Below are positions 52,132 to 56,843 of a DNA stretch of 64,000 nt, in pieces. The stretch covers positions 3,351,501-3,415,500 of the forward strand of contig NZ_CP040751.1 in the NCBI RefSeq assembly GCF_008001235.1, given 5' to 3'. This DNA comes from Salidesulfovibrio onnuriiensis (GTDB lineage Bacteria > Desulfobacterota > Desulfovibrionia > Desulfovibrionales > Desulfovibrionaceae). The number at the start of each line of letters is the position of its first letter. The first letter of the stretch is position 1. The notes beneath the pieces are model-generated. The model searched no databases and had not been told where the DNA came from. It saw nothing but the letters and a program-made list of their open reading frames with translations. The translations under genes were made by a program, and so were the position numbers.

Positions 52132-53376
52132 CTAATCGAAATCAGCCAGCAAAGAGCTGACCTGGATGCCCGCGACCTCGGGGGTGTCGTTGTATCGCTG
52201 ACGGATACGGAACAGAGCCTGATGGAGCTGGTCCGAGGAAATGCCGTTGCGCAGGGCGGTGTGGGCCTCGATATAGGCGGCGATGCTGTCGCAGACCTTG
52301 AGCAGTTCACCGTCCTTGGGATCCAGGGAATCCAGGTTGCACTCCCCGGCAAGATCCTCTGAAAGCACCTCCTCCACCACGCCGTCGCGCATGATGGTGG
52401 CCTTGAACTCGGACCCCACTTCCAGGCCCAGGAAATAGGCCATGCGCTCGGCGATGTCCTCGTAGCCGCCCTGACGCAGGGGGGCCAGCACCACCCGTTC
52501 CAGTTCGCGCTCCTCGTACTCCCGGATCAGGTCCCCGATCTCCTGGGAGGCGCTCTTCACCGGCGAAATGATGTCGCGGGTCAGGAGCTCGGGCAGGTCA
52601 TGGATGAGCCCGGAAAAAAAGTTGTTCTGCATGCGGGCGCGGCAGGCCCCCACCTCCATGCTGAAAAACCAGGAATAGGCGGCCACGATGTACATGTGGC
52701 CCAGCACCGAGGTCTCGGGCACGCGCGGTGTCTGGGACCAGCGCTTCTGAAACCGGAGCCGTCCGCACATGCGCGCGAACTGGCCCAGCACCGTACCCTC
52801 GTCCAGCAGCTCGGCGACCCCCTTGATGTCGGTCAGGGCACCCAGGCGATCCACAAAACTCTGCTCGATCTCCTGGAGCTCGTGATCCATGCTGTTGATG
52901 GTCTTGAGCAGCTTGAATTCCGAATAGCTGGCGTAAAGATGGGCCGCCTGCAGGATGCGCCGGGCCAGGCCCTTTTCCTCGGGCTCCATGAGATAGGAGG
53001 TAAGCCGCTTGGTGAAGTCGGGCCCCAGGGGCATGATGCGCGGCGTGAGCTGGCCGATGACCCATCGGGTCAGGCGCTGGTAGTCCTCGCGGTTCTCCTT
53101 GATGCGGTAGAAGACCGGAGGCTTGATGTCGGTGATGATCAGCCTGTAGAGGTAGTCGAACAGACCTCCCTCCACCACGGATTCACCCAGGGCGCGCTTG
53201 CGGGCCACATCCATGTCCCGCGAATTGAGCACGAACAGGATCCAGGCCACGAGCATCTTGTGGGCCTGCTTGTCCACCTCCACCAGTTCCATGGGCCGCA
53301 GCTTGTCGTTCCAGCGTTTCATGAACGCGCCGGTAAAGACAAGCTCCAGAAGACTCTTGCGGATAATGACGGACAT
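52132..53376 (-). CDS. HD-domain protein (YfbR-like phosphohydrolase fold)
   Basis: The 414-residue protein has a helical HD domain with the metal-ligand pairs HMYIVAAYS (first His) and GLIHDLPELLTRD (His-Asp), the pattern of YfbR-type or related nucleotidases. About 200 residues before it and 130 after are uncharacterised, so the substrate is unknown. GAGTCGCC precedes the ATG. It lies 79 bases downstream of the RimK-like ligase on the same strand and could be the last gene of that operon, although no shared function is evident. Confidence 0.78.
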   Translation of the reverse strand: MSVIIRKSLLELVFTGAFMKRWNDKLRPMELVEVDKQAHKMLVAWILFVLNSRDMDVARKRALGESVVEGGLFDYLYRLIITDIKPPVFYRIKENREDYQRLTRWVIGQLTPRIMPLGPDFTKRLTSYLMEPEEKGLARRILQAAHLYASYSEFKLLKTINSMDHELQEIEQSFVDRLGALTDIKGVAELLDEGTVLGQFARMCGRLRFQKRWSQTPRVPETSVLGHMYIVAAYSWFFSMEVGACRARMQNNFFSGLIHDLPELLTRDIISPVKSASQEIGDLIREYEERELERVVLAPLRQGGYEDIAERMAYFLGLEVGSEFKATIMRDGVVEEVLSEDLAGECNLDSLDPKDGELLKVCDSIAAYIEAHTALRNGISSDQLHQALFRIRQRYNDTPEVAGIQVSSLLADFD

Positions 53377-53455
53377 GGCGACTCCGGGTTCGATTCAATG
53401 ACTGGGCCAAAGAGTGCCGAAAATACAGCGGAAAGGCAATGCGCAATCGCGCGGG

Positions 53456-54403
53456 CTAGCCACGGCGGAAGTTGGCCACGGAAAAGGCCACCCGTTCCTC
53501 CACGGAATCACGTCCGGGTTCCAAAGTTTCAATCAGCTCCAGGCGGGGCCTCAGGCCCTGGCCGTTGGCCATCTGAATGGCCAGGCCCGGCCGGGCGTTG
53601 AGCTCCAGCAGCAGCGGGCCCCGGCTGGCGTCCAGCACCAGGTCCACGCCCAGGTACCCCAGGCCGGTCATTTCGTGGCACCGGGAGGCAAGGTGCAGAA
53701 AATCCTGCCAGTCGGGAATGACCAACTCGCGCAGTTCGCGCCCGGTATCCGGGTGGTGATCCACGGGCAGGCTGTGCTGGGTGGCCAGAAGCGCCCTGCC
53801 CGTGCCGATGTCCACACCCACGCCCACGGCGCCCTGATGCAGGTTTGCCTTGCCGTCCGAGGCGGCAGTGGAAAGCCGGGCCATGGCCATGACCGGGTAG
53901 CCCTTGTAGACGATGACGCGGATGTCGGGCACGCCCTGGAAGGTGAACCCGTCAAACACGTCCGAAAAATCAATTTTCTCTTCCAGCATGGCCACGTCGG
54001 GATTGCCCCCGAGGCTGAACAGGCCGCTCAGGGTATTGGAGACGTGGCGGTGCAGCCCGACCTCCCCGATGCGCTCGCCGCTGGACTTAATGAACCGGTC
54101 GCCGTCCCGCCCGGAGATCACCAGGATACCCTTGCCGCCGCTGCCCTTGGCAGGCTTGACCACAAAGCTTTCCTGCCCCTCCAGGAAGGGGATCAGCTGC
54201 CGGACGTGCCGCTGGACGCTGACCACGCCGAGCAGCCGGGGCGCGGCAATGCCCGCCTCCTCGGCCAGCTTCTTGGTCTTGAGCTTGTCGTCCACCAGCG
54301 AATACAGGTGCCGGGGGTTGTTTTCGGCAATGAAGCGGACATTGCGCATGTTCATGCCCACAACGCCCTTGCTCCTGAGCTGGGAGGGAAGAATGAAGCG
54401 CAC
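53456..54403 (-). CDS. RimK-like ATP-grasp alpha-L-glutamate ligase-type protein
   Basis: The 315-residue protein is an ATP-grasp enzyme. Its nucleotide-binding region is VVKPAKGSGGKGILVI, and the metal-binding end is DLVLDASRGPLLLELNARPGLA. It matches the RimK-related ligase family whose members join an acidic amino acid to a substrate through an acyl phosphate. The natural substrate is unknown in this subfamily. The gene starts seven bases after the 7TM gene and is always found with the same two partners in other bacteria (7TM inactive transglutaminase and retropepsin lipoprotein), suggesting one pathway at the envelope. Confidence 0.85.
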   Translation of the reverse strand: MRFILPSQLRSKGVVGMNMRNVRFIAENNPRHLYSLVDDKLKTKKLAEEAGIAAPRLLGVVSVQRHVRQLIPFLEGQESFVVKPAKGSGGKGILVISGRDGDRFIKSSGERIGEVGLHRHVSNTLSGLFSLGGNPDVAMLEEKIDFSDVFDGFTFQGVPDIRVIVYKGYPVMAMARLSTAASDGKANLHQGAVGVGVDIGTGRALLATQHSLPVDHHPDTGRELRELVIPDWQDFLHLASRCHEMTGLGYLGVDLVLDASRGPLLLELNARPGLAIQMANGQGLRPRLELIETLEPGRDSVEERVAFSVANFRRG

Positions 54404-54409
54404 GATCCG

Positions 54410-55948
54410 CTACTCCCTGCCCAGGGGCTCGAAACGGCGCAGTTCGCTGAGACGGAACCCGGTATAACTGCCGATCATGAGGATGGCCGCCAGGACCACC
54501 AGCAGCAGCTCGGGGAAGGAATAGGCCAGATGGCCCACCAGGCGGCTGGAAAGCAGCAGGTAGATCAGGCTGGAGGTCAGCAGGGAGCCGCCCCCCTGGA
54601 TGAAGACCTCCTTGAAGCCCTCCTCCTCCCAGAGAATGGACATGCGTTCAATGGTCCAGGAAATGATGATCATGGGGAAGAAGGTCACCAGCAGCCCGAT
54701 ATCGCTGCCCATCTTGTGGCTGATGACCGAGATGGCCAGATAGATGATGATCACGAACACGAGCACCGCGGAGATGCGCGGCACCAGCAGCAGGTTGAGC
54801 TGGTTCAAGTACGAGCGCAGCACCAGCCCCAGGCCCACGATAAGCACGAACAGAGCCAGCCCGATAAAGAGGGAAGTCTGCAGGAAGGTCAGGGCGATGA
54901 GGATGGGCAGAAAGGTGCCCGAGGTCCTGATGCCCACTAGGTTGCGCATGATCGCCACCACCAGGGCACCAAAGGGAATGAGCAGCAGAAGCTTGAAGGA
55001 GGTCTGGGCGTGCACCGGCAAGGTGTAGATGGAAAAATCCACCAAGGGCGTCTTGCCCAGCTCGGACTCGATGGCCACCTTGTTGGCCATGACCGAGTTC
55101 TCCACCGAGGCGAACGAAACCTTGGAGTTGGTGCCGCCCATCACTTCCAGCAGGGATTCGTTGTTGCGCTGCCAGATCAGGAAGGCGTTGGAATCCACCA
55201 CCACCAGCTCCCGGGGATCCAGCATGAACCAGGTATTCCCGGCCAGGACCTCAAGGTAGCTCTTGAGCGAATTGTGGCCCGTCTCGTTCAGAAACACCCC
55301 CCGGACCACGCGGGAGGTCACTCCGGCGCGGCGCAGCAGGGAGCGCGCCAGTTCGAGGGAGCCGCCGAAAGTATCCTTCATTTCCAGCAGGCTGGAGGCG
55401 CTGGTGTTGTTTTCCGGCAGGTTGAGCTGGAACAGAAGCTCGCGGGCCAGGGACACGGGATCCTCAGACCCCTTTGCCCGGACGTCCATGAGCAGCGAAT
55501 CGGCCAGCTGTTTCGCCGACCCGCTCAGGGGCACCACCTTGGGCGGGGCCTCGTTCAGCTTGGCTTCCCGGCCCTTGCCCGTTTCCAGACGGTAGACGTT
55601 GAGCCGCTGATAGATTTTCTGGGGGCCCTGTGCATGGTCCTTGGACCAGACGCCACGCCGCACTCCGTCCTGTTCCTCCACCCGGTAGGCGTAGTCCGCG
55701 TTTTCATCCACCACGTCCACGACCACCAGGTCGTTGAGATTGTCCGGCAGGTTCACGGAGACCTCAACGGGGCCTCCCTGGGCCAGGAAGGATATTTCCG
55801 CCTCCACGGTCCAGACCGTCTGGCGTTCGGAAGGCGAAAGCGCAAAGCCAAGGAAGAGCACCTTGTAGAGGGTGACTCCCAATCCCAGGCAGAGCAGTAC
55901 GCCCACCAGTATCATGAGTTGTCTTTTATTGCTTTTCATTACTGTCAT
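54410..55948 (-). CDS. Inactive-transglutaminase domain fused to seven membrane helices
   Basis: The product is about 512 residues. A membrane anchor at about 10-33 is followed by a periplasmic region with the transglutaminase fold (LARSLLRRAGVTSRVVRGV near residue 200), in which the catalytic Cys is not evident, then seven C-terminal membrane helices beginning near residue 310. The architecture is that of 'inactive transglutaminase fused to 7TM' proteins, which accompany RimK-like ligases. The lost catalytic residue suggests a peptide- or protein-binding role. Its start overlaps the retropepsin gene by 23 bases and the ligase follows after six bases, so translation is coupled. A start at 55939 is possible. 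Confidence 0.85.
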   Translation of the reverse strand: MTVMKSNKRQLMILVGVLLCLGLGVTLYKVLFLGFALSPSERQTVWTVEAEISFLAQGGPVEVSVNLPDNLNDLVVVDVVDENADYAYRVEEQDGVRRGVWSKDHAQGPQKIYQRLNVYRLETGKGREAKLNEAPPKVVPLSGSAKQLADSLLMDVRAKGSEDPVSLARELLFQLNLPENNTSASSLLEMKDTFGGSLELARSLLRRAGVTSRVVRGVFLNETGHNSLKSYLEVLAGNTWFMLDPRELVVVDSNAFLIWQRNNESLLEVMGGTNSKVSFASVENSVMANKVAIESELGKTPLVDFSIYTLPVHAQTSFKLLLLIPFGALVVAIMRNLVGIRTSGTFLPILIALTFLQTSLFIGLALFVLIVGLGLVLRSYLNQLNLLLVPRISAVLVFVIIIYLAISVISHKMGSDIGLLVTFFPMIIISWTIERMSILWEEEGFKEVFIQGGGSLLTSSLIYLLLSSRLVGHLAYSFPELLLVVLAAILMIGSYTGFRLSELRRFEPLGRE

Positions 55949-56639
55949 TCAGGGGAGAGGTTATGTATTCCCGGGTCACGTCCACCACGGCCCTGCCATG
56001 CAGCAGGGAGCGGCCGATGAGTACGGGCATTTTGAAGTCGGAACGATCCGTGAGGGAAAATTCAGTGGTGCATTTTTGCGAGCCCAACTGGACCTGCAGT
56101 TCCACCACATAGCGCCGCTGGCCGTCGCCCTCGTGCTGCTTGATGCGCACCGTGCGTTTCAGGGGACGCTCCAGCACCACGGCCTTTCCGGAAGCCGGGT
56201 CGGTAATGGTGAACCGAAGCCAGTCCTCACCGTCCCGCTCATACTGCTGGAGGTCGGTGGCGTCGATGGACGAGGTGGTTGCCCCGGTATCGATCCGCGC
56301 GGGAAGCTTCATCTTCAACTGGTCGAAGTAGACGTATTCCTTCTGACCGATGATCAGCAGGTTCTCGAACTTGACCTTGGGCTCGGCGGCCTTGCGCGCG
56401 GCAAACTTCTTCTTGAATTCCTTGCGCAGTTTTTTTTCCAGTTTCTTCCGTTCCTCGGCACAGACGTCGAAGGGATCCCCTTCACAGGCCCCGGTGCAGT
56501 TGCCGTCCCCGTACCATTCCAGCAGGGGCGGAGCCGTCTGCGGCCCGTACACGGGGTCGAAGGAAGGCTGATTCTTGGGGGTACAGGCGGCACAAACCAC
56601 CATGGCCAGGCACAAAGCCACACATAAAAAAACTCTCAT
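55926..56639 (-). CDS. RimB-like retropepsin (putative ATP-dependent zinc protease family) lipoprotein
   Basis: The second Met (56639) is six bases after GGAG and gives 237 residues. The signal peptide ends AMVVCAACTPK, so it is probably a lipoprotein. A helical Lys/Glu-rich spacer (EERKKLEKKLRKEFKKKF) leads to the retropepsin-like core with the catalytic Asp117 in ARIDTGATTSSIDA and a flap-like strand further on. The Zn_protease name (PF05618) is historical; the aspartate motif indicates an aspartyl peptidase. It heads the ligase operon and overlaps the 7TM gene by 23 bases. It may trim or recognise the peptide made by the RimK-like ligase. Confidence 0.82.
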   Translation of the reverse strand: MRVFLCVALCLAMVVCAACTPKNQPSFDPVYGPQTAPPLLEWYGDGNCTGACEGDPFDVCAEERKKLEKKLRKEFKKKFAARKAAEPKVKFENLLIIGQKEYVYFDQLKMKLPARIDTGATTSSIDATDLQQYERDGEDWLRFTITDPASGKAVVLERPLKRTVRIKQHEGDGQRRYVVELQVQLGSQKCTTEFSLTDRSDFKMPVLIGRSLLHGRAVVDVTREYITSPLNDSNEKQ

Positions 56640-56843
56640 CATCCACTCCAGCCGGAATCAACCGGCCTCTAAACCAAAGCCCCGGCCAAACGGCAGAGGC
56701 TGTATTTCAAGATCTTTTCCCAACCTAAAAGACGCATAATTCCGTAGCGCAGTTGGCCGGCAGACACAAGGGGCTGCATGAATTTGCACAGGAATAGGCA
56801 GAACGGGGCACAAGAATGCACAACCCGCCCAGACCCGCGAAAC

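Follow-up and report, generated by a model that had tools for sequence, protein, structure and literature searches.

An rlo operon in Salidesulfovibrio onnuriiensis whose protease looks like an add-on to a membrane protein and ligase core

What do three tightly packed genes of Salidesulfovibrio onnuriiensis do together, and does the HD-domain gene that follows them take part? The genes lie in a stretch of 64,000 nucleotides (contig NZ_CP040751.1, positions 3,351,501 to 3,415,500; the window), and an earlier note on this DNA had read them as encoding an aspartyl peptidase-like lipoprotein, a catalytically dead transglutaminase on a seven-transmembrane (7TM) anchor and a RimK-like ATP-grasp ligase that together synthesize, anchor and trim an amino-acid or peptide tag at the cell envelope. 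Judged by its protein families, the trio is an rlo operon (RloA–RloB–RloC) of the rloABC kind found in Pseudomonas aeruginosa, and comparison across genomes suggests that the 7TM protein and the ligase form its core and that the protease is an add-on. The features on which the argument draws, in window coordinates, are:

55926..56642, minus strand: rloA-like open reading frame, 238 amino acids (PF05618)
56280..56291, minus strand: RloA active-site motif D118-T-G-A, from the translation
54410..55948, minus strand: rloB-like open reading frame, 512 amino acids (PF14400 and PF14402)
55088..55822, minus strand: RloB residues 43-287, predicted periplasmic fold of the transglutaminase/Cys-protease type, lacking the catalytic Cys and His
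54434..55015, minus strand: RloB residues 312-505, predicted membrane domain, from conserved columns in 54 RloBs and the helix map of the model
53456..54403, minus strand: rloC-like open reading frame, 315 amino acids, GTG start (PF14397/TIGR02291)
52132..53376, minus strand: HD open reading frame, 414 amino acids (PF13023)

Pfam and NCBIfam matches confirm the make-up of the trio (that is, a retropepsin-like probable lipoprotein, an inactive transglutaminase with a 7TM domain and an ATP-grasp ligase), and the frame coordinates reproduce the spacing given in the earlier note, with an rloA/rloB overlap of 23 bases (55926-55948), a gap of 6 bases between rloB and rloC (54404-54409) and one of 79 bases between rloC and the HD gene. 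RloA matches PF05618, which Pfam itself names 'putative ATP-dependent zinc protease', at 140.7 bits (cut-off 27) and a crystallised RloA family member (9g58) at E 2.4e-21. NCBIfam already has named models for RloA1-3, RloB and RimB; the three RloA models give window RloA 93-103 bits, under cut-offs of 210-280, and the RimB model 85.9 bits, under its cut-off of 200. RloB carries PF14402 (326.4 bits) and PF14400 (110.6 bits), both above cut-off, and is covered over its whole length by the NF052267 RloB model at 319.9 bits, under a cut-off of 900. In its AlphaFold2 model (mean predicted local distance difference test score 81.6, predicted template-modelling score 0.62), a transglutaminase-like part is followed by a membrane domain in which two broken-helix motifs occur (G339..P348 and P425..W431..E434-R435); the triad columns carry neither Cys nor His, so that the transglutaminase domain appears to be as dead as had been proposed. 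The ligase label held only in part: RloC matches TIGR02291 ('alpha-L-glutamate ligase-like') at 420.8 bits (cut-off 314.2), which supports an ATP-grasp ligase, but 'RimK-like' fits weakly, with 44 bits for the RimK family PF08443. A 2009 amidoligase study is said to have predicted such gene clusters.

Both the families and their order are those of P. aeruginosa rloABC (PA14_41690-41710-41730; PA1768-1766), with which the window trio also shares the RloA motif, the poly-glutamate-binding positions, the inactive transglutaminase on a 7TM domain and the ATP-grasp ligase. A system that had been singled out as poorly described is thus of a kind already named in 2025 (Lormand et al., mBio; PMC12239564). 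As excerpts of that paper describe it, P. aeruginosa secretes three RloA proteases that are redundant with one another, RloA cleaves runs of eight or ten glutamates and not of six or fewer, and the catalytic Asp is needed both for cleavage and for rescue; low osmolarity requires the three RloAs together, the triple mutant is rescued when rloB or rloC is deleted, and the operon bears on biofilm and cell shape as well as on osmotic survival and sensitivity to antibiotics (PMC12239564). The proposal of an envelope amino-acid or peptide system with synthesis, anchoring and trimming agrees with this account as far as those excerpts go. In the open-licence PubMed Central literature, we found no further primary paper under the rlo name and none that names the rlo product; the words 'lipoprotein' and 'Desulf' are absent from the main text of PMC12239564.

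A search of named genomes with an RloB alignment returned at least 565 confirmed stretches, of which the best 80, chosen on RloB alone, were scanned with RloA, RloB and RloC profiles; counts out of 80 below refer to these loci. Conservation of the trio, the lack of which the earlier note had named as one of two outcomes that would refute its proposal, held at these loci, with the order A-B-C on one strand at 80 of the 80 best (two with a second PF05618-type frame). Eight of nine further loci from the same order have the whole trio, and the contig of the ninth ends after A-B. Distribution is patchy by comparison with this constancy of order: 10 of 60 relatives and 35 of 395 genomes of the phylum carry rlo, the window genome being counted in both. 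The RloBs of G031 and G015, from the same genus, are only about 35-36% identical to that of the window and are thus less similar to it than Nitrosomonas copies (43-47%), which suggests that rlo was acquired separately within the genus.

The N-terminus of window RloA is hydrophobic and Cys20 lies in the column of the lipobox Cys of four relatives, and the protein is probably secreted and lipid-anchored through Cys20; a lipobox pattern, counted in 71 of 91 rows, was loose and fell in the wrong place in window RloA, and the alignment column was used instead. D118 of the active-site motif is kept in 77 of 80 operon RloAs. In P. aeruginosa RloA, polyglutamate is contacted by K46, R92, R114 and R137 (excerpt of PMC12239564); by the offset from the 9g58 alignment, these four correspond to R116, R163, R177 and R200 here, and Arg or Lys occupies these columns in 75, 69, 75 and 76 of the 80, respectively. 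Unlike P. aeruginosa with its three RloAs, this host, a sulfate reducer, has one, with an N-terminal extension of about 90 residues and the probable lipid anchor. Besides a Lys-rich stretch, the extension contains three more cysteines, spaced C-x3-C-x7-C, and the crystallised RloA chains (159 and 152 residues) leave such an extension uncovered. The disulfide cysteines of crystallised RloAs are no part of the published definition of an rlo operon; window RloA, L018 and L017 lack Cys at the positions of the pair seen in some relatives (L014, L015 and L021).

Which parts of the operon can be lost? In RloC, the 14 residues that were checked, K83, E267 and N269 among them, do not vary across the 80 loci; which of the 14 are catalytic is our assumption. 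RloA is more variable. Three of the 80 have Asn or Ser in place of the catalytic Asp and keep R177 and R200 (Cellvibrio mixtus, L104; Cellvibrio sp., L113; and a gammaproteobacterial metagenome-assembled genome, L098), the Asp-less RloA lying at about 5.0-5.9 kb in L104 and L098 and at 1.3-2.2 kb in L113. In four others (L099, L112, L116 and L122; three Haliea and one Kineobactrum), DTA replaces DTG and most basic contacts are lost, an apparently independent decay, and in three more (L096, L102 and L105) DTG is followed by Ser or Thr. The RloC motif residues are kept in all seven loci with an Asp-less or Gly-less RloA, so that, as far as sequence can tell, loss of the protease motif is tolerated while the ligase is kept. 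Among eight divergent loci of the phylum picked for inspection, the trio is present in three (L196, L198 and L199), B-C without A in four (L192-L195) and B alone in one (L197), within the approximately 5 kb seen. The RloA-free pairs come from the near-complete genomes G151, G429 and G115 (100, 99 and 98%), with two pairs in G115, and a search for PF05618 gave no match anywhere in these three genomes. On the basis of the RloA-free pairs, the Asp-less RloAs and the invariant RloC residues, the 7TM protein and the ligase look like the core of the system and the protease like an add-on, a separation that these comparisons make and that, together with the three observations behind it, is new here.

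The RloBs of these pairs also vary in build. Those of L192 (3114-5630) and L193 (3730-6303) are longer, with RloC adjoining, and in L192 the stretch between the transglutaminase and 7TM parts carries no Pfam name; in L194 (4986-6344, RloC adjoining), a Pfam scan did not recognise the transglutaminase part.

Might another PF05618 protein stand in for RloA, or might the trio simply be a RimB-RimK system? The latter, which glutamylates ribosomal protein S6, likewise pairs a retropepsin with an ATP-grasp glutamate ligase (excerpt of PMC11957791) but differs in being cytosolic, without RloB and without a signal peptide, and RloC belongs to a different ATP-grasp family, TIGR02291. We rejected this reading, as the window ligase reaches 24.8 bits against PRK10446, for which the cut-off is 331, and the RimK of the genome (486.6 bits) is located elsewhere, in a separate RimB-RimK pair (L013 5983-7343). 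Seven of nine Desulfovibrionales rlo genomes (G000, G003, G015, G021, G031, G036, G037, G039 and G048 were checked and G054 was left out) have the operon RloA as their single PF05618 protein, with a second in G000 and G015; by this count rlo is independent of RimB, and its hosts here carry a single RloA instead of the three redundant ones of P. aeruginosa. RimB-RimK is also present in most rlo organisms, according to an excerpt of PMC12239564. A PF05618 search of ten genomes with altered or intact operon RloAs (L096, L098, L099, L102, L104, L105, L112, L113, L116 and, with an intact RloA, L119; L122 was left out) found two such proteins in each, one of them being the operon RloA; these are draft genomes, in which a third copy may be missed. 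The other protein has RimK right behind it in five of the ten, including all three Asp-less cases, and in the Asp-less genomes it looks like a cytosolic RimB.

We suggest that poly-glutamate is made by RloC, crosses the inner membrane by way of RloB and is trimmed by RloA, a reading to which we give an even chance, given that the published suppression pattern, the poly-glutamate cleavage preference and the core/add-on pattern all fit it. In this scheme, cytosolic RloC would use ATP to build a chain of glutamate (or of some other acidic residue) that is free or attached to an acceptor; the 7TM domain of RloB would pass the chain through the inner membrane and its dead transglutaminase-like domain would grip it in the periplasm; and lipoprotein-tethered RloA would cut it to length. 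RloA may thereby limit the amount or length of product that builds up, which would explain failure at low osmolarity without RloA and its relief by the additional loss of RloB or RloC, an untrimmed periplasmic polyanion presumably being dangerous under such conditions. The synthetic role of RloC, the transport role of RloB and the order of events are what we infer. The natural variants (that is, no RloA, an Asp-less RloA, and an RloB with an insert or without a recognisable transglutaminase part) make the model directly testable.

The choice between a free chain and one on an acceptor marks the first alternative, which we consider possible: instead of building a free polymer, RloC may glutamylate a specific acceptor, be it a protein, a lipid, a glycan or a precursor of peptidoglycan, with RloB carrying or presenting the tagged molecule and RloA removing the tag. 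The reversible tagging of ribosomal protein S6 by RimK and RimB is a precedent (excerpt of PMC11957791), PF14397, the RloC family, is named 'sugar-transfer associated ATP-grasp', PA1766-PA1768 insertions appear in the suppressor-screen table of an exopolysaccharide paper (excerpt of PMC7314104), and disruption of an inactive-transglutaminase gene in Shewanella raises vesicle output (excerpt of PMC12096838). Against it, no linked acceptor gene emerged: across ten loci (nine rlo loci and the RimB locus) no other family is common to more than three, antisense frames over the trio aside. In favour of the main reading, RimK together with RimB yields poly-alpha-glutamate in vitro (excerpt of PMC11957791).

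The altered RloAs raise a second alternative, namely that the main role of RloA is not proteolysis but partnership with RloB and RloC, through binding of poly-glutamate or tuning of the ligase (RimB stimulates RimK in this way), with proteolysis secondary and lost in some lineages. The Asp-less RloAs (L098, L104 and L113) do keep R177 and R200, and the one other PF05618 protein found in their draft genomes looks RimB-like. The four DTA RloAs, however, have lost most poly-glutamate contacts, for which decay is as likely an explanation as a new role, and the Asp is required for rescue in P. aeruginosa (excerpt of PMC12239564). Moreover, direct tuning would need RloB as an intermediary, because the inner membrane would separate periplasmic RloA from cytosolic RloC. 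We therefore regard this alternative as unlikely and retain trimming by RloA.

A bolder form of the make, carry and trim reading would place rlo beside a Gram-positive machine. PgsBCA/CapBCA is a poly-gamma-glutamate synthase composed of an amide ligase, a small multi-transmembrane protein and an outer-face partner; its ligase is of the Mur type, unrelated to the ATP-grasp RloC. By analogy, rlo would be a Gram-negative machine for poly-alpha-glutamate synthesis and export, in which RloC polymerises, RloB serves as a PgsC-like conduit with a periplasmic gripping pseudo-transglutaminase and an optional RloA cuts, the minimal machine being RloB-RloC; we consider this doubtful. The helix order of the two structural models is similar, and RloB G339-x4-G344-x3-P348 and P425-x2-I-x2-W431 resemble PgsC G24-x4-G29-x3-P33 and P112-x2-I-x2-W118. 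The pattern in common is G-x4-G-x3-P and then P-x2-[IL]-x2-W, the prolines of the two parts standing 77 residues apart in RloB and 79 in PgsC. Profile comparison with hhalign was not significant (E 0.06-0.95, with reversed controls as good or better), the conserved-letter test was reached by 8-21 of 300 shuffles and is borderline, PF14102 is absent among the 25/28 families listed for 54 RloBs, and RnfA-type chains are listed for the RloB model and not for the PgsC model. A link between RloB and PgsC/CapC thus lacks statistical support, and we keep it for this bolder reading alone. Separately, L061 (1-1977) belongs to a family of about 1080 amino acids with two N-terminal CapC repeats and a long remainder that matches nothing in Pfam; the named members come mainly from sulfate reducers and in part from Thiodiazotropha and Mariprofundus.

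Does the HD gene belong to the operon, as the earlier note allowed? It lies on the same strand 79 bases away, an arrangement repeated in the closest relative, G021. A functional module would need conserved linkage, and this is absent: the HD protein occurs in every one of the 36 genus genomes (the window genome itself, 34 in which it is complete or almost complete at 77-90% identity, and one in which a contig end truncates it) and RloB in five, and among those five the two are adjacent only in the window and G021, lie on different contigs in G003 and G031 and are 1.7 Mb apart in G015. RlmD, which flanks the operon upstream in the window (CbiM and NikL lie downstream), immediately precedes HD on its strand at 10 of 28 HD loci without adjoining rlo (30 loci examined; L029, L030, L032, L033, L038, L041, L043, L044, L046 and L056), 'immediately' meaning that the RlmD match ends within about 320 bases (about 80 bases in G017). 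At the remaining loci, RlmD is farther off, the neighbour is different or the contig ends, within the approximately 4 kb seen. The HD gene is, on this distribution, an ordinary core gene outside the rlo operon, its membership as a fourth gene being highly improbable, and, because RlmD adjoins HD at rlo-free loci, rlo looks like an accessory block between the two in this lineage. Base composition gives no clear sign of recent arrival (G+C 0.58, 0.61 and 0.65 for RloA, RloB and RloC, 0.62 for HD, 0.64 for RlmD and 0.60 for the window), and the signals at the operon ends are uninformative, with three terminator-like and one promoter-like matches against 5.6 and 1.3 expected by shuffling. Co-transcription of the HD gene by read-through in this one strain is possible.

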